This document shows, in pieces, positions 2,295 to 39,191 of a stretch of DNA of 40,773 nucleotides (its first letter is position 1; each line of letters starts with the position of its first letter). The notes under the pieces are model-generated. The model saw nothing but the letters and a program-made list of their open reading frames with translations. It had not been told where the DNA came from and made no database searches. The DNA is from a virus: the IMG/VR virus record IMGVR_UViG_3300020442_004286, positions 1 through 40,773 of that record; one strand, given 5' to 3'. Made by a program: the position numbers and the translations under genes.

Positions 2295-2514
2295 CTTAAC
2301 ATTAAGACAATTACAGCAAGAAAGTGCAAGAGCATTAAATACAATGCAAGCTACAAACAACAATATCTATCAATTTAATAAACAAGCACATCATAATAGT
2401 CAGATGTGGTACAAAGCTGTCATCGAGTGGTATATAAATACTTATGGAGATTTACCGAGTAAAATTGGACCAGGTAAAGATATAAGATTAATTTTAGATG
2501 ATACATCCATTTAA
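2281..2514 (+). CDS. Small hypothetical protein, TTG start
   Basis: 77 aa, not recognised. It begins with TTG inside the end of the methyltransferase gene (14-nt overlap), about 10 nt after a GAGG, and overlaps the following radical SAM gene by 17 nt. It is predicted to be helical and polar, with a Gln/Asn-rich N-terminal third, aromatic residues in the middle (MWYKAVIEWYINTYG) and no cysteine, signal peptide or membrane segment. Its position directly before a radical SAM enzyme makes a partner or substrate role conceivable, but nothing in the sequence proves it. An internal ATG (MQATNNN) would give a shorter product. Confidence 0.5.
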   Translation: MDISNLTLRQLQQESARALNTMQATNNNIYQFNKQAHHNSQMWYKAVIEWYINTYGDLPSKIGPGKDIRLILDDTSI

Positions 2515-3478
2515 TAAATTAGAAACCGTTCCTAAATTCAAAAGCATGACATGGGTATCTCATACTTATTGTAATTATAGTTGTGATTATTGCGTGCCAG
2601 AATTTTATAATGGCAAATATAGATGGAAAGATGATTTCACTGATATTATAAATTTAGTAAAAAATTTTAGAAAAAACAGTCCTTTAAGATTTGACATTAT
2701 GGGGGGAGAACCAACTTTATGGCCAAAGTTTTCTGATCTATGTAAAAAAATAAATGATACTGGAGAAAAAAATTATATAACATTTTCTACTAATGGAAGT
2801 AGAACAATAAATTGGTGGAAGAAATTTGACGCACCCACTTCCGAAGTTGTTTTATCTTTTCATATTATAAGTGGAGCTAGTATAAGTCATTTTATAGAAG
2901 TGATAAAAATTTTATCTGACAAAGGATATAGAGTGATAGTTTTTTTAATGATGCACCCTAAACATTTTAAATCTATCAAAAAATCAGCAAAAAAAGTTAT
3001 TAAATTAAATCTAAAATGTAAATTATATGTAAAATTAGTTACAGATTGGAAAAACATGGAAAAAGGTGGAGCGTTAATTGATGGATATACACAGCAAATG
3101 AAGGACTTTGCTGTTAAGATTAAATATGAAAAATCTCATCCAAGAAATGATTTTTGGAAAAATTTATGCTTACATGCAAGTTACAGTAAATCTGACAAAA
3201 GACCAATTGATTTGAGAGACCTTATTGTCCAAGAGAAAAACAGTTTTAAAGGTTGGATGTGTGCTACTGGTATTGATTATATTGGTGTAGAACCTAATGG
3301 TGATATATACGGTAGCCAATGTCGTCATCACGGTAAACTTGGAAATATTCATACTGGCTACACATTGCCAAAGACACCACAGACATGCTACAGAGAGTTT
3401 TGTAATTGTGGAAGCGATTTAGAAATATACAAATTTATAGATAGGAAAGCCGATGTCAATACATCAAAAATTTTGTAA
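2498..3478 (+). CDS. Radical SAM protein with SPASM-like C-terminus
   Basis: 326 aa. The radical SAM cluster motif is CNYSCDYC (C25, C29, C32), and the SAM-binding strand reads IMGGEP (residues 68-72). The C-terminus carries five cysteines (about C255, C275, C297, C302, C304) in a pattern W-x-C ... C-R-H-H-G ... T-C-x4-C-x-C, consistent with one auxiliary Fe-S cluster. It is a paralog of the protein at 17589-18701, sharing CNYxCxYC and the LGNIxTGxTL tail motif. SPASM/twitch radical SAM enzymes modify peptides or small molecules by H-atom abstraction; the substrate here is unknown. It is coupled to its neighbours on both sides by short overlaps. Confidence 0.85.
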   Translation: MIHPFNKLETVPKFKSMTWVSHTYCNYSCDYCVPEFYNGKYRWKDDFTDIINLVKNFRKNSPLRFDIMGGEPTLWPKFSDLCKKINDTGEKNYITFSTNGSRTINWWKKFDAPTSEVVLSFHIISGASISHFIEVIKILSDKGYRVIVFLMMHPKHFKSIKKSAKKVIKLNLKCKLYVKLVTDWKNMEKGGALIDGYTQQMKDFAVKIKYEKSHPRNDFWKNLCLHASYSKSDKRPIDLRDLIVQEKNSFKGWMCATGIDYIGVEPNGDIYGSQCRHHGKLGNIHTGYTLPKTPQTCYREFCNCGSDLEIYKFIDRKADVNTSKIL

Positions 3479-3890
3479 AATTAATTTACAACATACAAAT
3501 TATAAAATGCTTCCTAATGCAAGGCTACTAAAAGCAAATGAAATTGATATAGATTATTTACAGAATGTTTTTAGACAATATTGTGCTTACAAAAATTTTG
3601 ACAGTGTAATGCCATTATTTGATAGCGAATTTGAAGGAAATGATATTATTGGTTATTTTTATAACAATAAGATAGAAGCATTTACTATGGTAGGTGTGTA
3701 TGATGATACTAATTGTGAAAGCTATCAATTCTGTTGGACCTATCATGATCCTAACCTTAGACTAGGTATTGAAAGCATGAAGCATGAATGTGCTTACTAT
3801 AAAAGTTTAGGATTTAAATATTATTACTTAGGCCCACCAGGAAAATATAAAAGCCAACTTGAAGGTTATGAAGTGTGTGGAAAACTTTGA
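3453..3890 (+). CDS. GNAT/arginyltransferase-like (ATE-C-like) protein
   Basis: 145 aa. The middle strand pair (GYFYNNKIEAFTMVGVYDD) and the ending (helix of MKHECAYYKSLG, then FKYYYLGPPGKYKSQLEGYE) resemble the C-terminal GNAT fold of arginyl/leucyl-tRNA-protein transferases, where a YLGY-type segment is followed by K-x2-[FL]. Homology is weak and the assignment is tentative. ATG 3453 follows AGGAAAG by a few bases and overlaps the radical SAM gene by 26 nt; ATG 3507 is the alternative start. The 3' end overlaps the convergent gene by 25 nt. Confidence 0.5.
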   Translation: MSIHQKFCKINLQHTNYKMLPNARLLKANEIDIDYLQNVFRQYCAYKNFDSVMPLFDSEFEGNDIIGYFYNNKIEAFTMVGVYDDTNCESYQFCWTYHDPNLRLGIESMKHECAYYKSLGFKYYYLGPPGKYKSQLEGYEVCGKL

Positions 3891-4384
3891 ACAACATCAT
3901 TTAAATAATCTTTTGTCCAATTTTTATAATACTGCTTTTTCTTTAATATTTCTCTAGCTTTCTGTAATTTTTCTGCTTCTTGTAAAAGTATAAGTGCATA
4001 TGAACCTTGGTTTAATTTATATTCTAATACTTTTTCTTCAACAGCAGGATGATCTTCTAGTGCTATAAATCCTCTTTTTGTTAAAAATTTATCTGATGCA
4101 ATTTCTACTATATCGCTTAAATCATCACTTGAAATTAATTCTGGTTTACAGCCTAAAACTATAACTTCTTTTCCTTTTGGCCAGTGATAGCTATAATTTT
4201 CTAATTCTGCTAAAAAATATTCTTTCATAGACATCCTAGATTCATATTGATTATCTAGTTCTTGAATAACAATTTTATTTTTGATTAATGCTTCTTTAGC
4301 AAAAGGACATGCAGGTAGATTGTTAAATTCAGGTAAGTTTGTACTAAGTCTTTCTTTTATCCATTGCCGAATTTCATATTCCAT
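3866..4384 (-). CDS. Hypothetical protein with CPFA motif (DUF1415-like, weak)
   Basis: 172 aa from ATG 4384; an in-frame TTG at 4390 lies closer to an AAAGG and could be the real start. Not firmly recognised. The N-terminal W-I-K-E-R-L ... LPACPFAKEAL segment and the later VIVLGCKPELISSDDLSDIVE strand/helix loosely resemble DUF1415 proteins, which have a conserved CPFA motif. The C-terminal third is a Lys-rich helix (EKLQKAREILKKKQ). It lies immediately downstream of the amidinotransferase gene with a short overlap, so the two are probably co-translated and functionally linked. Confidence 0.5.
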   Translation of the reverse strand: MEYEIRQWIKERLSTNLPEFNNLPACPFAKEALIKNKIVIQELDNQYESRMSMKEYFLAELENYSYHWPKGKEVIVLGCKPELISSDDLSDIVEIASDKFLTKRGFIALEDHPAVEEKVLEYKLNQGSYALILLQEAEKLQKAREILKKKQYYKNWTKDYLNDVVQSFPHTS

Positions 4385-5585
4385 AATCAACTTGTTTACC
4401 TTTACGTTTAATATCTAGGGTTAAGCAATGCCAACCACCGTCCCAAAAAAATCTATGCCTTAGGGGACACACCACAGGCTCTATTTGATATTTACGTAAG
4501 TTTTCAATTAAATGTGGGTTTTCTGTGTTTACTACAACATGTCTTTCATCTAACACTAGACAGTTTACATCGAATATAGTTTCTTCTACATATCCAGTCC
4601 AGTCATGTAAAAAACTTTCTACAAACGCAGTGAATTCATCATTGTTTTCTTCTTCAGGCACCCACCACTTGCCTTGATTTTTGTGTTTCAAGTCCTTCCA
4701 GTGTTGTACCTTTGACCAGTTTGGATCTTCAAACCAAATTATTTCCCAACCTTTAAATAGATCCTTGAAAGGTTCTAAATCTCTGCTGGCTACAACTACT
4801 CCTGGCCTAATGACACTGAACACGGAATCATTATGACCACCTATAGATAATTTTTTATATTTGAATTCGGGATATTGTGTTTCTAAAAAATCTTCAACAA
4901 CAGTTGGTACTTGCCAAGTATCAACAAGACAAGTTTTTCCTATTCTAGTAAGATTAGGACTACAAAATGACGATAACATAAACCCTTCGTCTTTTTTATA
5001 CTTTGCAATATTGTTTGGTGTAACTTCTATGTTATTTTTTCCAAGGAAATTTTTTAAACTTCTATTACTACGTTCAAATTTAAATTTGCCGTCTTTTATA
5101 TCACAATCTATATTTTCTTTACCAAACCATTTTTCGTATTGAGGCAGTAATTTTTTTGTTGCAAAAGTCCAAGGATCTGTAGCTAATAATTTATTACCCA
5201 TTACAATACAATCATCTCTTGGTTGTAAAGGAGGATTCGGAACAAGACTAGGACTAACACCAGTGCTCCAAAAATTGTCATCATTTTTTTCTTCTTCGTC
5301 TCCTACATTTTTCCTATAACCTAGTTCGCCATTTACATTTACATAATCTAATATACTGTCTTTATATCCTAATTTTTTTACATCTGGTTTGTAAACTTTG
5401 ATATTATGACTCTTCATTGTATTTTCAAAATTTTCTAAATCTTCATTGGTATCATCAATAATTTTTTTCAATGCATCCTTTGCTCTTACATTTTTTACTG
5501 CATCAAAAAAATTACTGTCATAACAAGAACCTACTACAAGTTCTTCTAAAGGTTGAAATTCATCCCAACTATTAATTTTATTCAT
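4374..5585 (-). CDS. Glycine/inosamine amidinotransferase-like protein
   Basis: 403 aa, matching the usual length of L-arginine:glycine amidinotransferase and streptomycin-pathway inosamine-phosphate amidinotransferases. The N-terminus (NSWDEFQPLEELVVGSCYD) is the typical first strand of the pentein fold. GGHNDSVF supplies the catalytic His (H251), and FFWDGGWHCLTLDIKR carries the nucleophilic Cys (C387). The segment where the family has FDAAD reads FCSPNLTR, so the acidic triad member is not obvious. The family transfers an amidino group from arginine to an amine through a Cys-amidino intermediate; the acceptor is unknown. It is sandwiched between two small minus-strand genes with overlaps of 8-17 nt. 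Confidence 0.8.
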   Translation of the reverse strand: MNKINSWDEFQPLEELVVGSCYDSNFFDAVKNVRAKDALKKIIDDTNEDLENFENTMKSHNIKVYKPDVKKLGYKDSILDYVNVNGELGYRKNVGDEEEKNDDNFWSTGVSPSLVPNPPLQPRDDCIVMGNKLLATDPWTFATKKLLPQYEKWFGKENIDCDIKDGKFKFERSNRSLKNFLGKNNIEVTPNNIAKYKKDEGFMLSSFCSPNLTRIGKTCLVDTWQVPTVVEDFLETQYPEFKYKKLSIGGHNDSVFSVIRPGVVVASRDLEPFKDLFKGWEIIWFEDPNWSKVQHWKDLKHKNQGKWWVPEEENNDEFTAFVESFLHDWTGYVEETIFDVNCLVLDERHVVVNTENPHLIENLRKYQIEPVVCPLRHRFFWDGGWHCLTLDIKRKGKQVDYGI

Positions 5586-5955: not shown

Positions 5956-6984
5956 ATGGAGCAAATATTAGATATGGTTTGGAATTCGGTATCTTTATTA
6001 AGAAAACACACAAAGCAAATAGTAAAACAAGTCACAGCAGAAATCTCAAATAAATATCCTAATAGAACAGTGTATTTCAATAAATGTAGTAGAGATTTAA
6101 AGTATATTTTTACTGCTATTGCAGATTGTTTGGAATCTGATAATCAAAAATCGTTGATGTATGTAATAAAAAATTTTTTTAGAGGTGGAGAATTACGTCT
6201 ACAAAGTATTGATGTAGAAATAGAAGCATACAGTATTGCAGAAAATAAAATTCACAATTTATTTGATGCAAGTAACATAGATCCTTTATTTAAACAAAAA
6301 GTAACAGATTGTTTTGATATAATAAAAGAAAATTTTAAAAATGGTTACACTGATACAACTTATCCTGATAACTCTTGGACACAGATGTTAGAAGCGAAGA
6401 AGCAGTGTGCAACCTGGAGTGATAAAAAAGTAGATAAAGAAGAAATAGAAAGTATACTAGATGATATACACAAACACTGTAATAGTAAACAAAATAAAGT
6501 ACCTTATGAAATTAAAGTAATGGATTGGTCTAATACAGAAATGCGAGATTTACTTTTTCGTCATGCCCGCGACGAAGAATCACCAGAAGGTAAAAAGATA
6601 ACCCATTATAATACACAAGTGCTGGCTCCTTATGTGTTTTTATTCTTTGAGAGAGATGACAATACATATGATGAAAGAGATCTATTAAGGATTTCTAATT
6701 TAGAAATAGGATTAGCTGTTCAAACAGCGGCTTTAAGTGCAGTATCTAAAGGCTTGAGCGTAGGATTTTGTAAATGTTTTAATGATAGAGATAGACAAGA
6801 ATTTCACAAAAAGTTTAATGTGTTTAGTTCGCCTAGTGTTGTTCTAGGAATTGGATATTATAAAGAAAACAAAACACAAATAAATTATCATACACAAAAA
6901 CAACATCAGGCTTGGATCAGTTCAACTGTTCAAGAAGGAAAACATATTAAACCTGCAATGTATGATTATGTAAGTTATGTATAA
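5956..6984 (+). CDS. Nitroreductase-fold flavoprotein
   Basis: 342 aa. The C-terminal half (about residues 185-320) has the nitroreductase signature order: MRDLLFRHARDEE, then an APYVFLFFERD strand, then EIGLAVQTAALSAVSKGLSVGFC (the central helix with A-x4-LxG(L)xxGFC), then PSVVLGIGYY. The N-terminal ~180 residues are an unrecognised helical extension. Family members are FMN-dependent NAD(P)H oxidoreductases acting on quinones, nitro groups, flavins or peptide heterocycles. ATG 5956 lacks a Shine-Dalgarno; ATG 5974 follows GGAG at 5958 and is a good alternative. It overlaps the next radical SAM gene by 8 nt, so the two may work together. Confidence 0.65.
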   Translation: MEQILDMVWNSVSLLRKHTKQIVKQVTAEISNKYPNRTVYFNKCSRDLKYIFTAIADCLESDNQKSLMYVIKNFFRGGELRLQSIDVEIEAYSIAENKIHNLFDASNIDPLFKQKVTDCFDIIKENFKNGYTDTTYPDNSWTQMLEAKKQCATWSDKKVDKEEIESILDDIHKHCNSKQNKVPYEIKVMDWSNTEMRDLLFRHARDEESPEGKKITHYNTQVLAPYVFLFFERDDNTYDERDLLRISNLEIGLAVQTAALSAVSKGLSVGFCKCFNDRDRQEFHKKFNVFSSPSVVLGIGYYKENKTQINYHTQKQHQAWISSTVQEGKHIKPAMYDYVSYV

Positions 6985-8053
6985 TTACGAAGATATTAAA
7001 ACAATCCATTTAGAAGTGACACAAAATTGTCAAGCCGCATGTCCTATGTGCGACCGTAACATGAATGGCGAAGGGGTCAATCCGCATATTAATCTAGATG
7101 AATTAAGTTTAGAAGATTGTAAGAATATTTTTACACCTAAGTTTATTTCTCAACTTGATACTATGTTCATGTGTGGCAATTTAGGAGATCCTATAATTGC
7201 ACGTGACACATTAGAAATTTTCAGATACTTTAGAAAACACAATCAAAACATGTGGCTAAGTATGAATACTAATGGAGGAGCTAGAGATGAAGAGTGGTGG
7301 ATGGGACTGGCAGACATATTTGCTCGTCGCGGTGCTGTTATTTTTAGCGTTGATGGCTTACGATCTACAAACCACTTATACCGCCAAGGCGTTGTTTGGG
7401 ACAACGTCGAACGTTCCATGAAAGCATTTATTAAAGGTGGAGGCAGAGCTCGTTGGGATTACTTAATTTTTGAACACAATCAACATCAAGTAGAAGAAGC
7501 AGAATCTCTTAGTAAGGAATGGGGTTGCGAAAAATTTATTGCTAAAAAAACTGGCAGATTCATTACTACACAGTCTAAGAAAAAAGATACTCACCAAGCT
7601 GTAAATAAAAAAGGAAAAACTACAACACAACTTAAAAAACCTGAAAAAAAATATCAAAACAAAGCGTTAAAAAAACAAGATGTAATCATTAACAAGTACG
7701 GTAGTATGGATGTTTACTACGATGATGCTCCTATAGTTTGTAAAGTTAAAAAAGAAAACAGCTTGTTCATAACAGCTGAAGGTTTAGCTTTGCCTTGTTG
7801 TTGGACAGCAGGACGTATGTATAAGTGGTGGCATGAAGATCCATATGTTGAGCAAATATGGACTCATATTGATATTGCAGGAGGCAAACAAGCATTAGAT
7901 GCACGACAAGGCCTTGACAAAGTGTTTGACACAGGAATTTTTAATACTATTCAAGATAGTTGGAAATTAGATAGTTGTAATTTGGGAAAATTAAAAGTTT
8001 GTGCAATGAAGTGTGGAGCAGAATTTGACCCATTTACGGAGCAATTTAAATAA
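6977..8053 (+). CDS. Radical SAM/SPASM protein
   Basis: 358 aa. The cluster motif is CQAACPMC (C18, C22, C25). MFMCGNLGDPI stands where the GGEP loop normally is, as in other phage SPASM proteins. FSVDGL is a core barrel strand. A Lys/Gln-rich spacer (about residues 200-235) separates the barrel from the SPASM-like region, which has IVCKV, LPCCWT and a C334-x7-C342-x3-C346 tail. It is a paralog of the next gene, which starts on the shared TAATG. GC content rises to 43-48 % over 7321-7440, well above most of the window. Substrate unknown; peptide or small-molecule modification is typical of the family. Confidence 0.85.
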   Translation: MYNYEDIKTIHLEVTQNCQAACPMCDRNMNGEGVNPHINLDELSLEDCKNIFTPKFISQLDTMFMCGNLGDPIIARDTLEIFRYFRKHNQNMWLSMNTNGGARDEEWWMGLADIFARRGAVIFSVDGLRSTNHLYRQGVVWDNVERSMKAFIKGGGRARWDYLIFEHNQHQVEEAESLSKEWGCEKFIAKKTGRFITTQSKKKDTHQAVNKKGKTTTQLKKPEKKYQNKALKKQDVIINKYGSMDVYYDDAPIVCKVKKENSLFITAEGLALPCCWTAGRMYKWWHEDPYVEQIWTHIDIAGGKQALDARQGLDKVFDTGIFNTIQDSWKLDSCNLGKLKVCAMKCGAEFDPFTEQFK

Positions 8054-9111
8054 TGCATTACGTTGAACATCCTACAACATTACAAATTGAAATTTCATCA
8101 AATTGTAATTTGTGTTGTACAGGTTGTTGTCGGGTAGACGAAAATAGTTATGACATAAAGCCTAATAAATTTATTCCAAAAAATAAATTTTTAAGTGTTG
8201 AAATATTTAATAACCTTGTAAATGATCCTGCACTTAGTAAATTAAACAAGATTGAATTTTGCGGCACAATAGACGACCCACTTACTCATCCGAATTTTTT
8301 AGATTTTTTAAAAATTCTAAAGGAAAAGAATATTTCGTCTCAAATACATACAAACGCAAGTTTACGTACACCTGAATATTGGAAAAAAATAGCAGATTTG
8401 ACAAAACATGACGGACATACTTGTGTAAAGTTTAGTATTGATGGTTTAGAAGACACCAATCATTTATACAGACGTGGAGCTAATTGGAACAAAATTATGG
8501 AAAATGCTAAAGCATTTATAGAAGCAGGAGGAAATGCGTGGTGGCAAATGATTGTTTTTTCTTGGAATGACCATCAAATAGCTACAGCACAAAATTTAGC
8601 TAAAAAAATGGGATTTAACATGTTTAAGTATAGGCATGATAGGAGTAGGTCACCTAATGCAATCCAAGCTAAAGAAATGTCTGCTAAAAATTTTGGTACT
8701 AAAAAGACTAAAACTTACGAGCAACGAGTAAGATCTATGCAAACAATGTTACCTTTAAAAATTGAATGTTTTTCACAAAAAGAAAATTATTATTTTATAG
8801 GCCATAATGGTCAAGTTTGGCCTTGTTGTTTTTTAATGAATGCAAATTGGTCTACATTAACTCTAAGCGAAGAATATAACAATAGATTTGAAGGAAATTA
8901 TGGAAAACATTGGAATAATATAAATTACAAATCATTTAGTGAAATATTAAAATCACCTTTTTACACAGAAGATTTAGTTGATAGTTGGAAAAGTAAAAAA
9001 CACGGATCAGGTTGTAAAGACAGAGTTATAAGATGCACAGAAACTTGTAGTGTAAAAAGGTTAAAGGATAATCCTTTAGCAGATATCTCTCATGAAAATT
9101 GTATATTATAA
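8053..9111 (+). CDS. Radical SAM/SPASM protein, paralog of upstream gene
   Basis: 352 aa. The cluster motif is CNLCCTGC (C18, C22, C25) with a fourth cysteine directly after it. FCGTIDDPLTHP replaces the GGEP loop, FSIDGLEDTNHLYRRG is nearly the same as the matching part of the upstream paralog, and WPCCF plus C-terminal Cys residues (GCKD, RCTETC) form the SPASM-like region. Translation is coupled to the upstream gene (stop/start TAATG). The 3' end overlaps the convergent PLP gene by 6 nt. Confidence 0.85.
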   Translation: MHYVEHPTTLQIEISSNCNLCCTGCCRVDENSYDIKPNKFIPKNKFLSVEIFNNLVNDPALSKLNKIEFCGTIDDPLTHPNFLDFLKILKEKNISSQIHTNASLRTPEYWKKIADLTKHDGHTCVKFSIDGLEDTNHLYRRGANWNKIMENAKAFIEAGGNAWWQMIVFSWNDHQIATAQNLAKKMGFNMFKYRHDRSRSPNAIQAKEMSAKNFGTKKTKTYEQRVRSMQTMLPLKIECFSQKENYYFIGHNGQVWPCCFLMNANWSTLTLSEEYNNRFEGNYGKHWNNINYKSFSEILKSPFYTEDLVDSWKSKKHGSGCKDRVIRCTETCSVKRLKDNPLADISHENCIL

Positions 9112-9984: not shown

Positions 9985-11172
9985 ATGAAGCCGTGTATTT
10001 TGCCTTGGATAAATTTTAGCACAAATACATTCGGCAGACCCAGAGTCTGTGGATATAGCAGTGTGAAAACTCCTACTAAACTAAAAGACAGTACTCTTTC
10101 TGTTGAATGGAACAGTGACTATTTTAGAAAAATTAGGAAAGATTTTCTAGCCGGAAAGTGGCCAGAAAATTGCAGTCGTTGTGAGTATGTAGAAAAACTT
10201 AAAGGTGTTAGCAAAAGACAAGACGAAAATGGTTTTTGGTTTGATCAATACAAACATTTAATTGATCAAACAAAAGAAGATGGTAGCGTGCCGTATGACC
10301 CGCCACATATAGATGTACGCACAGGTATGATATGTAATTTAAAATGTATTCATTGTGGTACAGGAGCAAGTAGTAAATGGCAGGAAGATAAATTACTTTT
10401 AGATAAGTACCCCAACACAGAAAACTATAACATAGATAATAAATGGATTGAACAGCAAAACGAATTTTGGAATCACTTACGCAGTAAATGGCATGAAACA
10501 AAAAGATATAATTTTTTAGGCGGTGAAAGTTTTGCAAACAAAAGGCATAACGAATTTTTAAAAGATTTATCAGAAACTGAACATGCAAAAAATGTGCATC
10601 TTGCATATGTATCAAATGGGACACTTATAAATGAAGATAGGTTACAACAATTAAGTAAATTCAAACATATTGTTATGAGACTTAGTATAGATGCTTTGGA
10701 AAGGGCAGGTGAATATTTTAGATTTCCTATAAAATGGGAAACGTTTACAAAACAGCTTAAAGTAATTGATAATTTTGTTGCAGATAAAAATAATTTTGAT
10801 ATAGGAGTACAATGGACTTGTAGTAACGTAAGTATGTTTTATCTTATAGACACTTATGATATAATTAGAAAAGAATTTCCTAACATTAAATTTTTATTCT
10901 GCAATCATGTTGAATGGCCAATTCACATGAGTGCTCAGGTGTTACCACTTGAATTAAAAAATAAAATAAAAGATAAGATTGCTAATTATAATTTTAAAGA
11001 AAGAGATTTAGAAGATTATCCTTTTTATGTTAATCATATGATGGAAAAAGATTTATGGGAAGAGCACGGCCATACATTTATGAATTATCTAGATGATTTG
11101 GATACTGCAAGAAAGATTAGTTGGAGATACAATTTTCAGGAAATGGAGTTAGATAAGTATGATCCAAGATAA
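9985..11172 (+). CDS. N-terminal-twitch radical SAM protein (array member 1)
   Basis: 395 aa from ATG 9985. A longer frame from 9817 would read antisense through the PLP gene and across the promoter, and its N-terminus is unlike the family. The N-terminal twitch module has C4-x17-C22 and C63-x2-C66, linked by the helix WNSDYFRKIRKDFLAGKWP. The radical SAM motif is CNLKCIHC (C117, C121, C124), followed by an S-S-K-W segment and a GGES loop (179-182). The second twitch cysteine is C-G rather than the usual C-C. This architecture implies one SAM-binding [4Fe-4S] cluster plus one auxiliary cluster placed before the barrel. Overlaps the next gene by 14 nt. Confidence 0.85.
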   Translation: MKPCILPWINFSTNTFGRPRVCGYSSVKTPTKLKDSTLSVEWNSDYFRKIRKDFLAGKWPENCSRCEYVEKLKGVSKRQDENGFWFDQYKHLIDQTKEDGSVPYDPPHIDVRTGMICNLKCIHCGTGASSKWQEDKLLLDKYPNTENYNIDNKWIEQQNEFWNHLRSKWHETKRYNFLGGESFANKRHNEFLKDLSETEHAKNVHLAYVSNGTLINEDRLQQLSKFKHIVMRLSIDALERAGEYFRFPIKWETFTKQLKVIDNFVADKNNFDIGVQWTCSNVSMFYLIDTYDIIRKEFPNIKFLFCNHVEWPIHMSAQVLPLELKNKIKDKIANYNFKERDLEDYPFYVNHMMEKDLWEEHGHTFMNYLDDLDTARKISWRYNFQEMELDKYDPR

Positions 11173-12301
11173 ACCATTATGTTATGCTCCTTTTATAGGA
11201 ATGTATGCAACAGGATATGAGCAGTATGCACCTTGTTGTGTTGCAAAAAAAGATACATATGAAAATTTAGATCCAGCTGATTATTGGAAAAGCGAAGAGT
11301 TACAAAAAATAAGAAAAGATTTACTTGCAGGAAAATGGCCAGACGCATGTGCTTTTTGTAAAAATAAATCTGACAAAGGATTAAAAAGCGAAACATGGAT
11401 ATGGGACAAGCATATGTCTAAAGTAGATGTTGAGCTAGATATTCAATATGGTAACACTACAAAAGGACCTATGTTTTTAGATTATAGACCTAGCAATTTA
11501 TGTAATCTTAAATGTAGAATGTGTGTACCAAACGCAAGTAGTCAAATTACAAAGGAATTTCAAGAAAATCCTGAAATGCAAAAATGGTTCAAAGCACCAG
11601 AGAAAATTGTCAAGAATTTTGATTTGTTTAAAAATTTTACAAATAATATACAATTAAAACAAATAAAAATTTTAGGAGGAGAACCTACACTTGACCCATT
11701 AGTATTAGATTTTTTAGAAGCAATAATAGACAATTATGATACATTGCCTGCACTTAGATTTACTACAAACGGTACTAATCTAAATAAACGTTTTCGTAAC
11801 ATAATGGAAAAGTTTAAGGATATTCATATTGTGTTTAGTGTTGATGCAGTCGGAAGTGCATATGAATATATAAGAACAAATGCTAGTTGGAAAAAAACAA
11901 AAAAGATTATTGAAGAAATATTTGAAAAAGATATGGCAAAAGTATACGGATTTAACATTGTGTTAATGCCTTATAATATATTTCATTTAACTGATTTGCT
12001 AAAATGGTTTAAAGAGTTACAAAATAAAAATTATGATTTTGAAACATTCTATGAATTAAGTGAAGGTTATAATACTGAAATGAGTAGTGTGTTACCTGAT
12101 CATATGTCAAAAGCAACTCAATCATTGATTGATTGGAGTTTTGAAAATAATTATGACATAGATGACATTTTGAAATTGCTAGAATCAGTAACTTTTAATA
12201 CAAAAGCGTTTAATTATTTCAAGGAGTATAATAATAGTTTAGATAAAATAAGAAAAACTTCTCTTTTAAATTTAGATAAAAGGTTTGCAAATTATGCCTA
12301 A
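11159..12301 (+). CDS. N-terminal-twitch radical SAM protein (array member 2)
   Basis: 380 aa. The twitch cysteines are C8-x17-C26 (CC) and C64-x2-C67 with the helix LQKIRKDLLAGKWPD. The radical SAM motif is CNLKCRMC (C115, C119, C122), followed by VPNASSQ and ILGGEPTLDP. FSVDAVGSAYEYIR is the conserved mid-barrel strand. The SVLP motif seen in sister proteins is present. Its C-terminus (LDKIRKTSLLNLDKRF) keeps the D-x-x-R part of the shared tail motif but lost the D-x-x-P part. GGAG lies upstream of the ATG inside the preceding gene. Confidence 0.87.
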   Translation: MIQDKPLCYAPFIGMYATGYEQYAPCCVAKKDTYENLDPADYWKSEELQKIRKDLLAGKWPDACAFCKNKSDKGLKSETWIWDKHMSKVDVELDIQYGNTTKGPMFLDYRPSNLCNLKCRMCVPNASSQITKEFQENPEMQKWFKAPEKIVKNFDLFKNFTNNIQLKQIKILGGEPTLDPLVLDFLEAIIDNYDTLPALRFTTNGTNLNKRFRNIMEKFKDIHIVFSVDAVGSAYEYIRTNASWKKTKKIIEEIFEKDMAKVYGFNIVLMPYNIFHLTDLLKWFKELQNKNYDFETFYELSEGYNTEMSSVLPDHMSKATQSLIDWSFENNYDIDDILKLLESVTFNTKAFNYFKEYNNSLDKIRKTSLLNLDKRFANYA

Positions 12302-13583
12302 TTATAAAAATAAACCTGATAGTTTTTTACAAAAGAATAAGTCAATCTGTATTTTGCCTTGGATTCATACTTCTGTAAAACCCAATAGTGAAGCAAAACC
12401 TTGTTGTAGATTTCAGCATTATTTGCCTGAGCATAAAGATATAAAAAATATAAACGTAGTTGATTACAAAACACCACAAGACATTTTACAAAGTGCAGCT
12501 TATAATGAGTTGCGTGAAAAAATGTTGCGAGGTGAATTTATTCCTGGGTGTAGCAAGTGTTATAGAGAAGAAGATAGACATGGGCATAGTATGAGAATGG
12601 GAGAATGGAGTCTCTATGATTCAAAAAAAATAATCGAAAATGAAGATATTGGATTAAGATACTTGGAGGTAGCATTTGGTAACTATTGTAATTTAGCTTG
12701 TAGAACTTGTAATTCTGAATTATCAACAAATTGGTACGATGATGATATTATTTTATCTAAAGATAAGGGGTATATTGATAGAAAACCGTGGAAAAAAGTC
12801 ACTGATGTAGAATATAATTGGCCAAGTAACGAACTTACAGAATTAAAACAAATTAAATTTACAGGCGGCGAGCCTATGTTGCACCCTAACTTTATAAAAT
12901 TTATAGATATTTTAATTCAAAGCGATCTAGCAAAAAATATAAAATTAGAAATTTTTACAAATTGTAGTTGGGTTCCTAAACAAAAAGTATTAAGTAGGCT
13001 AAGCAAATTTAAGGAAATAGAAATTTGCATGTCAATTGACGGTTTTGGAAAACTTAATGATTATTTACGACATAAATCAAAATGGGAAATAGTACATGAC
13101 AGTTTAAAAACTTGGTTAGATTATGACAAAGAGAATCCTAGAGCTAATGCAGTGCTATCTCCTACAATTTCAGTATATAATATATTTGATATTTTTGAAC
13201 TAATGGATAATTATGCAAAATATAGAACAGAACGAAAATTAAAAACAGATCGTAGTCATTTGGTCATATCAACCGCAGTATATCCTGAATATGTTGGTTT
13301 TAGAAATATAGGAGATAAAGTCCGTGCAGTAGTACATTTGGAAAAAATTTATAATAGGTATACTAAAGATTTAGCAAATTACGATTTACGTTTTAAATTA
13401 ATTACTAGAGCTTTTAATAAAATAAAAAACGAAGTTGAAAAAGAAACAAATGGTGTGCATCCTAAATTTTTAGACTTTATTAAAGACTTAGATGAAATAA
13501 GAAAACAAAATTTAAAGGATTATATTCCTAATTTATATAGATATCTTGAAGATTGTGGTTGGATAAATTATGAAAAAAGATAA
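12294..13583 (+). CDS. N-terminal-twitch radical SAM protein (array member 3)
   Basis: 429 aa from ATG 12294, which follows AAAGG by 10 nt; an in-frame TTG at 12285 is possible. The twitch module is C19-x17-C37 (CC) and C86-x2-C89 in CSKCYREED. The radical SAM motif is CNLACRTC (C132, C136, C139), then S-T-N-W and FTGGEPMLHP. ICMSIDGFGKLNDYLR is the core strand. The tail LDEIRKQNLKDYIPNLYRYL matches the shared C-terminal signature. It overlaps both neighbours by 8-14 nt, consistent with a single translationally coupled operon. Confidence 0.87.
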   Translation: MPNYKNKPDSFLQKNKSICILPWIHTSVKPNSEAKPCCRFQHYLPEHKDIKNINVVDYKTPQDILQSAAYNELREKMLRGEFIPGCSKCYREEDRHGHSMRMGEWSLYDSKKIIENEDIGLRYLEVAFGNYCNLACRTCNSELSTNWYDDDIILSKDKGYIDRKPWKKVTDVEYNWPSNELTELKQIKFTGGEPMLHPNFIKFIDILIQSDLAKNIKLEIFTNCSWVPKQKVLSRLSKFKEIEICMSIDGFGKLNDYLRHKSKWEIVHDSLKTWLDYDKENPRANAVLSPTISVYNIFDIFELMDNYAKYRTERKLKTDRSHLVISTAVYPEYVGFRNIGDKVRAVVHLEKIYNRYTKDLANYDLRFKLITRAFNKIKNEVEKETNGVHPKFLDFIKDLDEIRKQNLKDYIPNLYRYLEDCGWINYEKR

Positions 13584-25298: not shown

Positions 25299-25300
25299 GT

Positions 25301-26887: not shown

Positions 26888-27906
26888 AAAAATGTGTTTA
26901 CCCTAATAACATACTAGTTGTTAGTAACGATGGAAATACAATAAGCTGTCCATTAGAAAGTGGTAATGTAAAACTTGCTGACATTAACAATGGAATACAA
27001 AATGCTTGGCAAAGTCCTTTATATGATGATTTTAGAAATAATTTAGACAAATATTTAAATGACAAAAATAAAATTTGTTGGCAATGTAATTTATTGGAAA
27101 GAAATGGAGCTACAAGTTTAAGAACAGAACTATTACCAATTACAGAAGATGTAAAATTAAAAGGAGTACAATTTAAGTTGAGCAACAAGTGTCAATTGGT
27201 TTGTGCTCATTGTGGGCCATTACTTAGTAGTAGTTGGGGAAAACATCTTGGAATAACAAAGCCTATACGTAATTTTAATTTAAAAGATAACATTATAGAA
27301 GAATTAAAAGAATTAGTTCCATCTTTAAATTTTATTAGATTCACAGGAGGTGAACCTTGGATAGATCCAACTCATTGGAAAATCTTAAATGAATTACATA
27401 AAATTGACAAGAAAGATTGTGAGTTACATTACATTACAAATGGTCTAGGTAAAATCAAAAAAGAACTTTGGGAACCATACAAAAGAGTATTAATAATGTT
27501 AAGTGTAGACGGTTATGCAGAAAGTTATGAATGGTTCAGAAGAAAATCTAGTTGGAAAGATCTTATAAAAAATTATGAAAATCTTAAAAAACTTCAAAAT
27601 GTAGAAGTATGGATAAATTTTTCTATAACTCCTTGGACAATAAATTATCTTGATGATTGCAAAAATTTTTTTTCTGAAAGATTTTTTACAGTTCCTATAA
27701 TGAATCCTAGTCATTGTAGTTTAGCATCTATATCAAAAGAAAATTATGAAAAACTAGGGTTGACAAATTATCCAAAATATAGTAAAATAATAGGATCAAA
27801 CATTAAACCTTTGGAGCATTTAAAAAATTGGGCATTAAAATGGGACAGATCTTGGAACACAATCGGACAAGCAGAAAAGATACATCCTTGGTTGTTAAAA
27901 ATTTAA
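26872..27906 (+). CDS. N-terminal-twitch radical SAM protein (array member 9, separated)
   Basis: 344 aa. The twitch module is C8-x17-C26 (C-P rather than C-C) and C69-x2-C72 in CWQCNLLERNGATSLR. The radical SAM motif is CQLVCAHC (C107, C111, C114), followed by GPLLSSSW and FTGGEPWIDP. MLSVDGYAESYEWFRR is the core strand. It is shorter at the C-terminus than the main array members and lacks the shared tail signature. It lies 6 kb from the main array, between a methyltransferase and a GNAT-like gene. Confidence 0.85.
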   Translation: MQTSVKKCVYPNNILVVSNDGNTISCPLESGNVKLADINNGIQNAWQSPLYDDFRNNLDKYLNDKNKICWQCNLLERNGATSLRTELLPITEDVKLKGVQFKLSNKCQLVCAHCGPLLSSSWGKHLGITKPIRNFNLKDNIIEELKELVPSLNFIRFTGGEPWIDPTHWKILNELHKIDKKDCELHYITNGLGKIKKELWEPYKRVLIMLSVDGYAESYEWFRRKSSWKDLIKNYENLKKLQNVEVWINFSITPWTINYLDDCKNFFSERFFTVPIMNPSHCSLASISKENYEKLGLTNYPKYSKIIGSNIKPLEHLKNWALKWDRSWNTIGQAEKIHPWLLKI

Positions 27907-28507: not shown

Positions 28508-28515
28508 AATAAATA
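28508..28515 (+). promoter_or_regulatory. Late-promoter-like AATAAATA before the desaturase pair
   Basis: Matches 7 of 8 bases of TATAAATA in the 24-base gap before the first desaturase. With T4 spacing the transcript would begin at 28521, exactly at the third codon (ATG) of the gene, repeating the 13-base geometry of the motif at 9972. Chance occurrence is possible in such AT-rich DNA. Confidence 0.35.
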
Positions 28516-30058: not shown

Positions 30059-31594
30059 ATGGCTAATATAGTCTTATGTGGAGGTATATCCGTGGTGCCT
30101 TATTGGAGGCCTATAGGAATATACCAAATTGCTAATATTTTAAGGAAAAAAGGATACACTGTACAAGTGATAGATAGTTTTCCTTGGTTAGTATATACTG
30201 ATTTTGATAAACTACTAAAAATATTTGATAAATTTGTTGATAAAGATACACTATGGATCGGATTTGGTTCTACATGGTTTTATAGAATAGAAAACATGTT
30301 TAATGACCCACAACCTAAAGCTGGAAGTTCTGATGGACTTATGACAACAAAGCCCAAACAGAAATTAGATGCTATTAAAGAAAATACAAGATTATTAAAC
30401 TTAGATGAAATTGAAAAATTAAAAACGTTAGTGTACAGTAAAAATCCTGAAATTAAATTTGTAATGGGAGGAGCTAGGGCATTTAGCGGCAGAAAAGGTT
30501 TTGCATCTCCTTTAATAGATTGTTACATAGAAGGTTTTGCTGATGCAACGGTTGTAGAATATACAGAGTATCTGGATGGAAAACGTGATAGCATAGAACA
30601 TATTAAAAACGAAGATGGAAGCATAAACATAATTCATGATCACAAAGGCGAATCCTTTGACTTTGTGCATGATAAACATTCATGGCATTCTAGTGATTTG
30701 GTAATTGATGGAGAGATTCTACCTTTAGAAACTGCAAGAGGTTGTATTTTTAGTTGTGCTTTTTGTGCATATCCTTTAAATGGTCGTAAAAAATTAGATT
30801 ACCTTAAAAGTTCAGATATTTTAAAAGATCAATTTTTAGAAAATTATGAAAAATATAATGTAACAGATTATTTTTTTACAGAAGATACTTTTAATGATAG
30901 TCCAAAAAAAATTAGGATTTTACATGATGAAGTTGTTGACAAATTGCCTTTCAAAATTACCTTTAGTTCGTATATGCGTTTAGATTTATTGAATGCTCAT
31001 AGAGATACTATTCCTTTACTTTATAATATGGGGGTTAGATCTGTGATGTTCGGAATAGAAAGTATGAACTATGAAGCTAACAAAACTGTTGGAAAAGGAA
31101 TTAGAAAAGAAAAAATATTAGAAATGGGTGAAGTTTTACAAAAAGAATGGCCGGACACTATCAAGTATGCAAGTTGGATGCTAGGTTTGCCAAATGATGG
31201 AGAGCAGGAAATATCTGAATGGCTAGAAGAAATTTGCAAACCAGATTTTCCTTTTGATATATCTGCTGTATATCCTTTGACATTAGATAGATGGTTACAC
31301 AAGAAAAATATATGGAATTCTAAATTCAATCTCAATCCTGAAAAATACGGATATACTTTCCCTCAAGATAAAAATAGTTTTTTCTGGGTGAACAACAAAG
31401 GTTATTCATTAGCTGATGCCGTAAGAATGCGTAACTCATATAATAAGACGCATATAAAATCTAAAGAAAAACATTTATTTGAACATAACGCATTTGTTAG
31501 AAGTTTTAAAGCTGATACATGGAAACAGCGTTTACAAAAACGTATGGATTTCAATATTAAGTATATGGATAGGCTTTTAAATTACAATGGCTAA
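30059..31594 (+). CDS. Radical SAM protein with B12-binding-like N-terminus (twin 1)
   Basis: 511 aa. The N-terminal domain (1-160) starts with a Rossmann strand (NIVLCGG), then PIGIYQIANILRKKGYTVQVID, and WIGFGST and FVMGGARAF strands, as in B12-binding radical SAM proteins. The DxHxxG cobalt-ligand motif is not seen. The radical SAM motif is CIFSCAFC (C229, C233, C236) followed by YPLNGRKKLDY. YFFTEDTFN and MFGIESMNYEANKTVGKG are typical later strands. Members of the family perform methyl transfers, C-C or C-S bond formation and other radical reactions. Overlaps its twin by 8 nt. Confidence 0.82.
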   Translation: MANIVLCGGISVVPYWRPIGIYQIANILRKKGYTVQVIDSFPWLVYTDFDKLLKIFDKFVDKDTLWIGFGSTWFYRIENMFNDPQPKAGSSDGLMTTKPKQKLDAIKENTRLLNLDEIEKLKTLVYSKNPEIKFVMGGARAFSGRKGFASPLIDCYIEGFADATVVEYTEYLDGKRDSIEHIKNEDGSINIIHDHKGESFDFVHDKHSWHSSDLVIDGEILPLETARGCIFSCAFCAYPLNGRKKLDYLKSSDILKDQFLENYEKYNVTDYFFTEDTFNDSPKKIRILHDEVVDKLPFKITFSSYMRLDLLNAHRDTIPLLYNMGVRSVMFGIESMNYEANKTVGKGIRKEKILEMGEVLQKEWPDTIKYASWMLGLPNDGEQEISEWLEEICKPDFPFDISAVYPLTLDRWLHKKNIWNSKFNLNPEKYGYTFPQDKNSFFWVNNKGYSLADAVRMRNSYNKTHIKSKEKHLFEHNAFVRSFKADTWKQRLQKRMDFNIKYMDRLLNYNG

Positions 31595-33164
31595 CATAAT
31601 TATTTTCACAGGGTCATCCCGTACTAATCCTAAAATATTTTTTAATGAAAGCGATAATACTACTTTCTTATTGAATAGACCTTTGGGTGCATACCAGATA
31701 GCATCTATATTGCGTGATAATGGTTACACTGTACAAGTTATAGATAGATATCATTGGTTAGTAAGAACAAAAGGTATAGAATTTTATAAGGAGGTAATAA
31801 GAAAATATGTTGACAAAGATACATTGTGGATCGGATGGAGTAATACATTTATGGAGGGCAAACCAAAAACAGATAATGATGTAAGAACAGTAGGGTATAT
31901 TGTAGATGCACTTGACGCAATTGGCATGGAAAAAGAAGGCATGATGGCTATGAATATGTATAGGAAAAAGACAAATCCTAACATAAAATTTGTGTGTGGT
32001 GGTGCTAAAACTTGGAGATGGAGTCAACAAGGTTTAACATTTTTTGATTTTTATTTTGAAGGATATAGTGATGCAATGATGCTAGACTTTACCAACTGGC
32101 TTGCAGGTAAAGGTCCAAAACCAGAATCAAAAAAATTAGATACTGGTGCAGAGGTGATTGATTATGATAGAACAGGAGATGCATTTGATTTTGTAAATCA
32201 TGTGCATAAATGGCATAAAAGTGATTACATAATACAAGGAGAAGCAGTACCAATCGAAATATCTAGAGGATGCATATTTAGATGTGCGTATTGTAGTTTT
32301 CCATTAAATGGAAAAAAGAAATTAGATTTTATAAGAGATGCAGAATCTTTAAAGGAAGAATTTATTAGAAATTACGAAGAATATGGAATAACAAAATATT
32401 ATTACAGTGATGACACGCATAATGATAGTATTGAAAAATTAGAATACCTTTATAATAAGGTATATAGTAAACTGCCTTTTAAGATTGAATTTGCAACGTA
32501 TTGTAGATTAGATTTGTTAGGAGCTCATCCAGAAACTATTCCTTTACTTTATGAAAGTGGCCTGAGATCTACATTTTTTGGGATTGAAAGTTTTAATAAT
32601 AATGCTAATAAAACAGTAGGCAAAGGAGCTAGTGAAGAAAAAATATATGAAAATTTATGGAAATGTAAAGAAGTTTGGAAGAATGATGTCTTTATACATG
32701 TAGGATTAATTGTTGGATTACCTAATGAAGATGAACAATCTGTAATGGATTGGGGTACTAGAGTATTAGAAAAAGATTCTCCTATTGACTGGGCTATGAT
32801 TACAGAGTTACATCTATTTCCAAACTATGCTAAAGATGCTCATTGGTTAAACAAAATGGAATTGAATCCAGATTTTTATGGATATACTTTTGATGAAAGG
32901 GGAATAATCTGGACAAACAATAAAGGCATGACTAAACCTAAAGCCCAACTAATAAGCAAAAAATTAAATAACATGTTAATAAGAAATAAAAAGAAAAATT
33001 TGCATCCTGAGAGTTGGTACAGTTTTGCCAATGCCGCAAATTTACAAATGGACTTAAACAGTTACCTAAATACTCCCCAAGATGATCTAATTGAAAATAG
33101 AGATAAAATTTTAAATGAATATTATTTAAATTTAAAAAATAATGCTCCCAATCTCGCAAACTAA
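31587..33164 (+). CDS. Radical SAM protein with B12-binding-like N-terminus (twin 2)
   Basis: 525 aa, paralog of the preceding gene with the radical SAM motif CIFRCAYC at identical positions (C229, C233, C236) and the same FPLNGKKKLDF continuation. The N-terminal Rossmann-like region is RPLGAYQIASILRDNGYTVQVID with WIGWSNT and FVCGGAKTW strands. YYYSDDTHND and FFGIESFNNNANKTVGKG match the twin. As there, no DxHxxG is visible. Tandem retention of both copies implies that they have different substrates or act as a pair. It ends the 23-kb plus-strand run. Confidence 0.82.
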   Translation: MANIIIFTGSSRTNPKIFFNESDNTTFLLNRPLGAYQIASILRDNGYTVQVIDRYHWLVRTKGIEFYKEVIRKYVDKDTLWIGWSNTFMEGKPKTDNDVRTVGYIVDALDAIGMEKEGMMAMNMYRKKTNPNIKFVCGGAKTWRWSQQGLTFFDFYFEGYSDAMMLDFTNWLAGKGPKPESKKLDTGAEVIDYDRTGDAFDFVNHVHKWHKSDYIIQGEAVPIEISRGCIFRCAYCSFPLNGKKKLDFIRDAESLKEEFIRNYEEYGITKYYYSDDTHNDSIEKLEYLYNKVYSKLPFKIEFATYCRLDLLGAHPETIPLLYESGLRSTFFGIESFNNNANKTVGKGASEEKIYENLWKCKEVWKNDVFIHVGLIVGLPNEDEQSVMDWGTRVLEKDSPIDWAMITELHLFPNYAKDAHWLNKMELNPDFYGYTFDERGIIWTNNKGMTKPKAQLISKKLNNMLIRNKKKNLHPESWYSFANAANLQMDLNSYLNTPQDDLIENRDKILNEYYLNLKNNAPNLAN

Positions 33165-36754: not shown

Positions 36755-36762
36755 GTCAAGAG

Positions 36763-36770: not shown

Positions 36771-36784
36771 GGATTAAATACGTA

Positions 36785-36792: not shown

Positions 36793-36800
36793 TATTTGAT

Positions 36801-37778: not shown

Positions 37779-37787
37779 GTAAAAAAA

Positions 37788-39191
37788 TTGAGTGCAGGTA
37801 AGTCTAATTTTAATTTAGAAAGTTTCTGTCCTGAAGCATGGAATCAAATTGAGATTGATGCTCAAGGCGATTACAAAATTTGTTGTTTAGCAAATTTTGA
37901 TAAAGATTTCGGAATGGCTCTAGATAAAGACGGCAATGTTATGAATGTTAAAACTCATAGTATAGAAGAAGCTATGAATAGTGAAACACATAAACAACAT
38001 AGAAAAGAAATGAGCCAAAACATAAAACCCCAAAGATGTAGAAACTGCTTTGATAGCGAAGAAAGCACAAGAAATCTTAAAGGATTTGGAAAGTACAAAG
38101 ACAAATTTGCCCATTTAGGAATAAGCAAGCGTCAACGAGTTTTAAGAAAAACTACTAGAGATGTTCCTGAATATACTAAAGTTGAAAATGCACATTTAGT
38201 TACAAGTGCTGACGGAACTTTGGATACATCAAAATCAAAAGTTGTTAATTTAGATATGCGTTTCGGAAACCTTTGCAATCAAAAATGTATAATGTGTAGT
38301 CCGCAACACAGTAATCAATGGTATGAAGATTGGGTAGCAATAGGATACGGTGCTCCGCAATATAATAGAAACCATGGAGTTTACAGAAAAGGCAAAGCAA
38401 AAGAATTTAGTTTTTATTATGACAAACATGATAAAATAAAAATGGAGGGTATGGAACCTTGGTGGGAAGGAAATGATTGGTGGGATAGATTTGATTCAAT
38501 GGCGCCTAATTTAAGATATATTTATTTTACAGGTGGTGAGCCTCTTATAGTGCCACAAATGCAACAGTGTTTAGATAGACTTATTAAAGGCAATTTTGCA
38601 AAAAATATACAATTAAGATATGATACAAATCTAAGTGTAATAAATCAAAAAGTGATAGATAAATGGAAGCATTTTAAAGAAGTATTTCTTTGTATTAGTG
38701 TAGATGATACTGGTGAAAGATATAACACAATTAGATACCCAGGAAATTTTGACAGAATAGAAAACAACATTGTTACTCTCAAAAACAATGGCATGTTAAT
38801 AGAATATGTAAGTACTTGTATTGGAATTGCAAGTCCTTATGCTGTACAAAGAATATATGAATTTGGCAAGAAATACGATATCGAGACAAACTTTAGATTT
38901 TTAGAAGGACCAAATTGGTTAGATATTAGAAATTATCCACGTAAAGCAAAAGAAGAAATCATAGAAAATTTAAAAAATTATTCAGATGATCAAAAATACA
39001 CACGGTGGGCTATAGCTGAAATAAAATTATTAGAGAAATATATAGATCATTGTAATGAAAAACACTTACATGAATTTATTAGAGTAATGGATGTATTAGA
39101 TAAACAAAGGTCAACTAATTGGCGTAAAGCTATGCCCGATGTTGTAGACTTATTTAAAAAATATTGTCCCCATATATATAAGGAAGGTTAA
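37788..39191 (+). CDS. N-terminal-twitch radical SAM protein (array member 10, separated), TTG start
   Basis: 467 aa from TTG 37788, preceded by AGGT; no in-frame ATG lies before the first twitch cysteine. The twitch module is C14-x17-C32 (CC) and C84-x2-C87 in CRNCFDSEES. The radical SAM motif is CNQKCIMC (C163, C167, C170), followed by SPQHSNQW and FTGGEPLIVP. CISVDDTGERYNTIR is the core strand. The tail LDKQRSTNWRKAMPDVVDLF fits the shared C-terminal signature, so it is closest to array members 5 and 6 although 20 kb away. Linker residues 95-150 are basic. Confidence 0.87.
   Translation: MSAGKSNFNLESFCPEAWNQIEIDAQGDYKICCLANFDKDFGMALDKDGNVMNVKTHSIEEAMNSETHKQHRKEMSQNIKPQRCRNCFDSEESTRNLKGFGKYKDKFAHLGISKRQRVLRKTTRDVPEYTKVENAHLVTSADGTLDTSKSKVVNLDMRFGNLCNQKCIMCSPQHSNQWYEDWVAIGYGAPQYNRNHGVYRKGKAKEFSFYYDKHDKIKMEGMEPWWEGNDWWDRFDSMAPNLRYIYFTGGEPLIVPQMQQCLDRLIKGNFAKNIQLRYDTNLSVINQKVIDKWKHFKEVFLCISVDDTGERYNTIRYPGNFDRIENNIVTLKNNGMLIEYVSTCIGIASPYAVQRIYEFGKKYDIETNFRFLEGPNWLDIRNYPRKAKEEIIENLKNYSDDQKYTRWAIAEIKLLEKYIDHCNEKHLHEFIRVMDVLDKQRSTNWRKAMPDVVDLFKKYCPHIYKEG

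Follow-up and report, generated by a model that had tools for sequence, protein, structure and literature searches.

Why would a virus commit nearly half of a 41-kb stretch of DNA to radical S-adenosylmethionine (SAM) enzymes? The question is raised by the IMG/VR record IMGVR_UViG_3300020442_004286, a linear fragment of 40,773 bases (the window, meaning here this whole stretch), for which a first-pass annotation, made from the sequence alone, had counted sixteen radical-SAM genes of three architectures and had deduced a major product. We find that most of the sixteen are variable accessories placed around a small core that recurs in related phages and, in part and in another arrangement, in Bdellovibrionota, and the idea of one major product is unproven. 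What the core makes may be a glycan-like decoration tailored by radical chemistry, a reading that we put first but hold tentatively. In what follows, R01 to R16 are the radical-SAM genes in order of position, and g01 and g02 are the first two genes of the window (Table 1).

The census itself proved accurate. A search of the record with PF04055 returned exactly 16 matches (E 2.0e-18 to 2.2e-7, all at E<=0.001), each at one of the annotated genes; 13 pass the curated cut-off, while those at 6977, 14867, and 19883 fall below it, and the CxxxCxxC motif is intact in 16/16. Subgroup or family hidden Markov models recognize all of them. The summed gene lengths amount to 6,575 codons plus stops, or ~48.5% of the window, so that "nearly half" was correct. 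Ten proteins had been called N-twitch, and ten match NF033640 (N_Twi_rSAM), nine above its 170-bit cut-off and the tenth, at 26872, half a bit short at 169.5. Judged by cysteine positions, an N-terminal C...C(C)...CxxC set precedes the radical-SAM motif in 10/10 of these proteins, and across 79 aligned N-twitch sequences (ten of the window, all others of phage loci) no variation is seen at C28, C91, C94, the cysteines of CxxxCxxC, or GGE, and hardly any at C10. The N-twitch profile matches BtrN (profile positions 5-75 against BtrN 186-258, its twitch part; 1e-8), an aminoglycoside enzyme and the one that defines the twitch domain. The twitch-type cysteines before the motif, together with this match, therefore place the auxiliary domain ahead of the radical-SAM core.

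The other two architectures held in part. Among the four genes called SPASM-like, all of which have the radical-SAM core at the N-terminus, Pfam recognizes SPASM in 8053 alone (PF13186, 1.2e-6); 2498, 6977, and 17589 have C-terminal cysteines with no Pfam SPASM match. For 30059 and 31587, to which B12-binding-like N-termini had been attributed, the best family matches are indeed B12-type radical-SAM families (PhpK-like, 8.4e-20 and 7.7e-18), at 71 and 64 bits against a 600-bit cut-off, whereas the B12-binding domain PF02310 is sub-threshold in 30059 (2.1e-4) and gives no Pfam match in 31587. Two genes probably start later than their longest open reading frames (ORFs), at 9985 rather than 9817 and at 18703 rather than 18658 (N-terminal C..PW-like motif).

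The constant part of this island consists of g01, g02, a gene for a protein of 77 amino acids (aa), R02, R09, and R10, in fixed order and on one strand. Relatives of R09 and R10 on viral contigs number at least 160 and at least 308, with identities of 80-91% among the best 80 of each, and g01 has 354 viral relatives (best 80 kept). Among the 37 loci chosen by R09 with 10 kb available on both sides, 31 show g01, g02, R02, and R09 in that order on one strand, 21 of them with R10 also within reach; the remaining six miss one or more core members, and a rearranged order occurs in none. Clustering of the ORFs of these 37 loci recovered R09 in 37, R02 in 35, g02 in 30, a 74-77-aa gene in 30, g01 in 29, and R10, whose place often lies beyond the flank, in 25, with the next family at 18. 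The small gene was absent from the first-pass list. It stands directly after g02 in the window and between g02 and R02 in relatives (64 phage loci, 39 distinct sequences), and its product is conserved along most of its length, including aromatic and His residues. A second, divergent core set (g02, R09, R10, R01, and R02 homologs, 19-42%) is present in the contigs G005 (~94-101 kb) and G015 (~61-69 kb), as if duplicated.

The remaining thirteen radical-SAM genes count as accessory. When each place in 161 related loci was assigned only to its best-scoring window protein, R12 and R14 claimed none, and the N-twitch proteins of phage loci fall into 159 clusters (427 distinct sequences, clustered at 50% identity). 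The first-pass annotation had also seen in the SpeD homolog a link to heavy SAM use. SpeD itself consumes SAM; its relative occurs in 1/161 related loci and is absent among the shared families of the 37 R09 loci, and we rejected a role in SAM supply.

The window does not include the flanks of the island, and no head, tail, or replication gene was recognized in it with Pfam, NCBIfam, or PHROGs, a search that covered most genes, though not every gene in every library; no tRNA was found, and an Rfam search gave no match. The context comes from relatives. On contig G003 (256,558 bases), the terminase, portal, protease, capsid, polymerase, clamp loader, UvsX, UvsW, and gp46/47/55 match HTVC008M proteins at 26-36%, and gp4 does so at 41%; single contigs of relatives carry T4-like head, tail, and replication genes, which supports the viral origin. 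The island of G003 is preceded by a baseplate wedge gene (1.6e-292), a 4,806-residue protein that occupies the position of VrlC, and collar-type fibers (tail collar PF07484, 5e-20), and it ends at an Mtd-type fiber gene (Mtd_N, 7.6e-9); by a looser profile, 15 of the 19 radical-SAM genes of this contig lie within the 47 kb between the fibers. Of five inspected contigs, the three that reach both ends (G003, G005, and G001) have fiber-like genes on both sides, the flanking genes of G005 and G001 being the same as those of G003; G016, which begins inside the island, retains the Mtd-type gene downstream, as does the examined part of G015. By comparison with these relatives, the window represents an inner portion, between tail-fiber genes, of a T4-like marine phage's host-recognition cluster. 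Among isolate phages, tblastn found no relatives of R10, g01, or R15 and remote matches alone for R09 and R02. The heavy investment in radical-SAM enzymes is real and recurrent, with 8-23 matches on each of 22 related contigs, counts that are biased because the contigs were picked through radical-SAM genes and that include what look like near-copies (G019-G021).

Relatives of the same enzymes are found in cellular genomes. A genome scan with four N-twitch proteins gave 40 loci, 25 of them from records titled Bdellovibrionia, Bdellovibrionales, Bdellovibrio, Bacteriovorax, Bacteriovoracaceae, or Oligoflexia, such titles being the basis for phylum assignment throughout. We regard the cellular loci as chromosomal because genes resembling nusG/rplK, serS, or htpG (by eye) adjoin some of them. 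At E<=1e-45, N-twitch genes occur in 41/144 Bdellovibrionota genomes versus 3/200 in another phylum (the centre genome counted in each). Orthologs of R10 with 57-67% identity are present in 8/144 Bdellovibrionota genomes (E no higher than 7e-85; one lies in two pieces on separate contigs); at E<=0.001 the figure is 34/144, 26 of which are weak matches to other radical-SAM genes, and a search of 398 genomes from the G040 phylum gave none at E<=1e-30. It had been asked whether such density is ordinary for the host chromosome. This holds in part: equally dense clusters do exist in Bdellovibrionota, at most candidate hosts, with 13 N-twitch matches listed in G032:C1:745,513-774,880 (contig of 917 kb) and 8 within 12 kb of an 84-kb contig (G036:C41).

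The phage core proteins also occur together in these bacteria. In 9/9 cellular loci with R10 and neighbors available, R09 lies next to R10 or one gene away; R02 (over 240 bits) is present in 8/9 and a glycosyltransferase within ~5 kb in 7/9, none being seen at that distance in G095 or in G164, whose contig ends soon after. These nine leave aside G137 (R10 alone on a 5.3-kb contig), L288 (R09 without R10), and seven loci that were chosen through other N-twitch genes and show no full R10; the g02 profile included g01-g02 fusions and also detects the short glycosyltransferase, and such rows were read as g01. Two metagenome-assembled genomes (MAGs) carry a minimal four-gene module among unrelated genes, as g01-R09-R10-R02 in L297 and rearranged in L295. 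Unlike the phage core, the bacterial modules have another gene order, the 77-aa gene was not found in the Bdellovibrionota loci searched, and g02 relatives (33-46%) are limited to some loci, four in number.

In trees, 32/35 phage R09 rows and 19/23 phage R10 rows fall into one clade each (Shimodaira-Hasegawa-like approximate likelihood ratio test support, SH-aLRT, 99 and 98), with the cellular rows outside these main clades and a few divergent phage rows apart. The R09 tree, whose outgroup branches are very long, holds 49 rows (three from the window) out of 103 distinct relatives, and the unrooted R10 tree 32 rows (one from the window) out of 95; of the phage sequences over 80% identity, one in five was kept. 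Given single main phage clades with the cellular rows outside, the exchange of R09 and R10 between phages and bacteria, in either direction, therefore looks old. Bdellovibrionota were considered as phage hosts but not adopted as such; G016 (L173:14692-15076, L171:15932-18202) carries an alphaproteobacterial/permuted transfer-messenger RNA (RF01849, 85.9 bits; RF04321, 111 bits), which hints at an alphaproteobacterial host, together with a cluster of 20 tRNA genes. Three MAG contigs titled Rickettsiales, Neisseriaceae, and Thermoplasmata (L290, L291, and L299) carry phage-type versions of the island, with the 77-aa gene in L290 and L291 and an R09-like protein in L299 that groups with phage rows; these are probably misbinned phage DNA and were excluded from the cellular set by judgement.

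What might the core do? The predicted structure of L205, a full-length relative of g01 (78% identical to the window gene), has two similar halves (predicted local distance difference test, pLDDT, 91.3; predicted template modeling score 0.63). Its second half resembles B4GALNT1 (Z 12.1, root-mean-square deviation 2.7 over 140 residues), and the best Foldseek match of the g01 relative is chondroitin polymerase (7.1e-6). The modeled fold of g01 is GT-A-like, the second half being the best tested, and g01 is a predicted glycosyltransferase. Sequence-only searches of solved structures gave nothing for g01, R10, or R02 and one weak match for R15. Sugar families recur in four phage islands (Epimerase 2, UDPG_MGDP_dh 2, and DegT 2 among 127 genes without the motif) and in ten cellular loci (Polysacc_synt_2 3, Glycos_transf_2 3, and Bac_transf 1 among 91 genes), in tallies where families overlap on the same proteins and 5/127 and 2/91 genes still match PF04055. 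Because of the GT-A-like g01 and of these recurring sugar-nucleotide and polysaccharide families in both settings, we rate highest, though with some doubt, a pathway in which a glycan-like decoration of virion fibers or of the host envelope is built and is tailored by radical chemistry. We infer the substrate, the product, the target, and the working of the core as one pathway. The core would make a glycan-like building block and transfer it, and the radical-SAM enzymes would act on C-H bonds of the sugar or of its carrier, by oxidation, deoxygenation, epimerization, or cross-linking. The variable radical-SAM, 2-oxoglutarate (2OG) oxygenase, pyridoxal phosphate (PLP), GNAT, desaturase, and ATP-pyrophosphatase genes would add phage-specific decorations, and neighboring phages would consequently display different chemistry. 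Either the tail fibers encoded at both ends of the island or the host envelope may receive the decoration.

Several observations weigh against this reading. The glycosyltransferase fold match applies to single domains, and it has no counterpart at sequence level among solved structures. GT-A folds also glycosylate proteins and small molecules. The R09 model is a confident radical-SAM fold (pLDDT 89.6), and its nearest structures tie between the sugar enzymes BlsE and DesII and the peptide enzymes CteB and SuiB (Z 11.4-11.6), such that comparisons of the predicted fold do not separate sugar from peptide chemistry. The sugar families are a minority of island genes, and no glycan genes were seen adjacent in the tightest cellular modules, L297 and L295. 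Finally, nine contigs of 58-186 kb have 0-5 radical-SAM matches each; they were surveyed from 80 loci chosen by capsid rather than by radical-SAM genes, the other 71 loci being on contigs under 43 kb. The scan with the HTVC008M capsid gave mostly short contigs, one of its 80 being surveyed (2 matches), and PF04055 matches number 1 in HTVC008M, 2 in Mosig, and 2 in one further T4-like contig. Either the lineage does not always carry the island or the capsid-chosen fragments miss it; therefore, the richness is a property of a phage subset, or of contigs that include the island.

The strongest competitor, which we nevertheless consider unlikely, is maturation of a ribosomal peptide or protein, in which SPASM/twitch enzymes would modify the 77-aa protein or the fiber proteins by cross-linking, epimerization, or methylation, and g01 would glycosylate the target. 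SPASM/twitch enzymes are often peptide maturases; SkfB, CteB, and SuiB are among the structural neighbors of R09, 2OG and Asp/Asn hydroxylase families are present in the island, the island sits between fiber genes, and the core includes a small protein with conserved aromatic and His residues. However, most of that protein is conserved, unlike a precursor with a constant leader and a variable core, its window copy has no cysteine, and R09 and R10 persist in the Bdellovibrionota loci where its gene was not found. The gaps between the four genes of L297 are at most ~110 bases, an argument limited by the fact that a precursor could lie elsewhere and that the search did not extend to short genes of other kinds in the 600-700-base gaps next to g01 in L297 and L295.

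Remodeling of the host envelope, whereby the pathway would alter the infected cell's O-chain or capsule so as to exclude superinfection or let progeny escape, is less probable again. It is the proposal made, in the portion of PMC7029224 consulted, by the pelagimyophage authors for the glycosyltransferases of their cluster, and the cellular relatives in G081 and G164 lie within some 4-10 kb of polysaccharide-type genes (by eye). Against it, no membrane carrier, flippase, or ligase was recognized in the window, and the place between fiber genes fits a virion target equally. We give still less weight to a secondary or auxiliary metabolism with no link to recognition, for which the island would be a mere landing place for acquired genes. 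The very mixed enzyme content, the N-twitch diversity given above, and the Fe-S metabolism genes noted in such phages in the relevant section of PMC5332604 fit this proposal, but a single selected function is favored by the strict core order and by the one main phage clade that R09 and R10 each form. DNA hypermodification is very improbable, since 16/21 core-type contigs (including ones of 330, 257, and 236 kb, although all may be fragments) have no member of the thymidylate-synthase family that is usual for base hypermodification and related modules sit in cellular genomes, even though the family is present in 5/21 (including 382, 275, and 180 kb) and glycosyltransferases and radical-SAM enzymes do occur in phage DNA-modification sets.

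A bolder form of the glycan-decoration reading concerns both groups of organisms. PMC10769870 reports tail-fiber-like MAT adhesins in Bdellovibrio, which might point to a link between the phages and Bdellovibrionota, a group known for its predators. It is conceivable, if rather improbable, that the module of a glycosyltransferase and three radical-SAM enzymes common to marine T4-like phages, where it sits within the tail-fiber locus, and Bdellovibrionota makes a radical-tailored decoration of fiber-type prey-recognition adhesins, diversified by swaps of accessory radical-SAM genes.

Parts of this picture have precedents. In the sections consulted, PMC7029224 (2020) describes the pelagimyophage host-recognition cluster as a variable island after VrlC with tail fibers and glycosyltransferases, two genomes differing by added radical-SAM cassettes, and PMC5332604 (2017) describes TARA_ERS488813_N000010, a T4-like marine genome of 183 kb with 12 radical-SAM genes. 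A high count is therefore not new in kind. TARA_ERS488813_N000010 is probably the same kind of phage; its authors treat Fe-S metabolism, and the relevant section mentions no core, fiber context, or bacterial counterpart. Window-type islands share with the pelagimyophage cluster the variable island with tail fibers, glycosyltransferases, and radical-SAM cassettes, but they differ in their larger radical-SAM load (8-23 per contig) and in their fixed core. The isolate Pelagibacter phage Mosig EXVC030M has a smaller island between VrlC and the tail fibers, with a nitroreductase, a 2OG oxygenase, a desaturase, and three "molybdenum cofactor biosynthesis" genes; it differs in having two PF04055 matches only, and R02 matches Mosig at 22%. 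We did not find the core, or its sharing with Bdellovibrionota, described in the literature, as covered by titles and abstract openings of top-ranked matches (few subscription papers and no bioRxiv).

Table 1. Core, radical-SAM, and selected accessory genes of the window (positions in bases).
Feature	Position	Strand	Remarks
Core g01	2..1111	+	Tandem-domain GT-A-like predicted glycosyltransferase; 5' end cut by window edge; fold from full-length relative L205
Core g02	1098..2294	+	N-terminal repeats and methyltransferase-like C-terminus (by eye); no Pfam match
Core small gene, 77 aa	2281..2514	+	TTG start here; overlaps g02 end; 64 phage loci
R01 radical SAM	2498..3478	+	N-terminal core, C-terminal cysteines, no Pfam SPASM match
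Accessory amidinotransferase-like	4374..5585	-	By eye; no Pfam match
Accessory nitroreductase-like	5956..6984	+	PF00881 4.9e-7
Core R02 radical SAM	6977..8053	+	C-terminal cysteines; 35/37 loci
R03 radical SAM with SPASM domain	8053..9111	+	PF04055 1e-11, PF13186 1.2e-6
R04 N-twitch radical SAM	9985..11172	+	NF033640 299.5 bits
R05 N-twitch radical SAM	11159..12301	+	NF033640 245.2 bits
R06 N-twitch radical SAM	12294..13583	+	NF033640 299.8 bits
R07 N-twitch radical SAM	13570..14874	+	NF033640 317 bits
R08 N-twitch radical SAM	14867..16171	+	NF033640 392.4 bits; best segment up to 52% identity in cellular loci
Core R09 N-twitch radical SAM	16161..17570	+	NF033640 420.7 bits; 37/37 loci (selected by R09)
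Core R10 radical SAM	17589..18701	+	C-terminal cysteines; PF04055 7.8e-15; 57-67% Bdellovibrionota orthologs
R11 N-twitch radical SAM	18703..19896	+	NF033640 232.7 bits
R12 N-twitch radical SAM	19883..21037	+	NF033640 191.8 bits
Accessory SpeD-like (SAM decarboxylase)	24371..24730	+	PF02675 9.8e-17; relative in 1/161 loci
R13 N-twitch radical SAM, borderline	26872..27906	+	NF033640 169.5 of 170 bits
R14 class-B-like (B12-type) radical SAM	30059..31594	+	B12-type family matches
R15 class-B-like (B12-type) radical SAM	31587..33164	+	B12-type family matches
R16 N-twitch radical SAM	37788..39191	+	NF033640 288 bits

Further accessory genes were noticed in these islands. Two short PLP-fold-like proteins (by eye; 9106-9945 on the minus strand and 21757-22614 on the plus strand; no convincing Pfam match) have relatives in phage and Bdellovibrionota clusters, the first at 37-39% in three cellular loci. 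Genes similar to three ATP-pyrophosphatase-type neighbors (33212-34147 and 34113-35018, with sub-threshold QueC/NAD-synthase matches, and 35564-36754, by eye) are found in other phage islands and in Bdellovibrionota clusters. Two fatty-acid desaturases and one fatty-acid hydroxylase lie within the island (28515-30049 and 25289-25774), and desaturases likewise stand beside the cellular cluster of G025 (31-34%). Among relatives, G003 has TctA- and TctC-like transporter genes inside its host-recognition cluster (L193:7613-9675; TctA PF01970 2e-57, TctC by eye), and the island of G005 has a tryptophan-halogenase-like gene (L179:7768-9180; PF04820 1e-65; 30% to HTVC008M PrnA).

We found no stated function for the N-twitch family; the NF033640 description names none, and a text search by family name gave, among the matches listed, one SPASM/twitch spectroscopy paper and chance matches. 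The core is a testable handle on this family and on the unexplained abundance of radical-SAM enzymes in some marine T4-like phages, as it narrows the candidates from sixteen enzymes to three, together with a glycosyltransferase, a methyltransferase-like protein, and a 77-aa protein, and its cellular form offers bacteria in which to seek the product. If the glycan reading is true, these phages would use radical enzymes to diversify their surface chemistry, with consequences for host recognition and for resistance to phages in the ocean.

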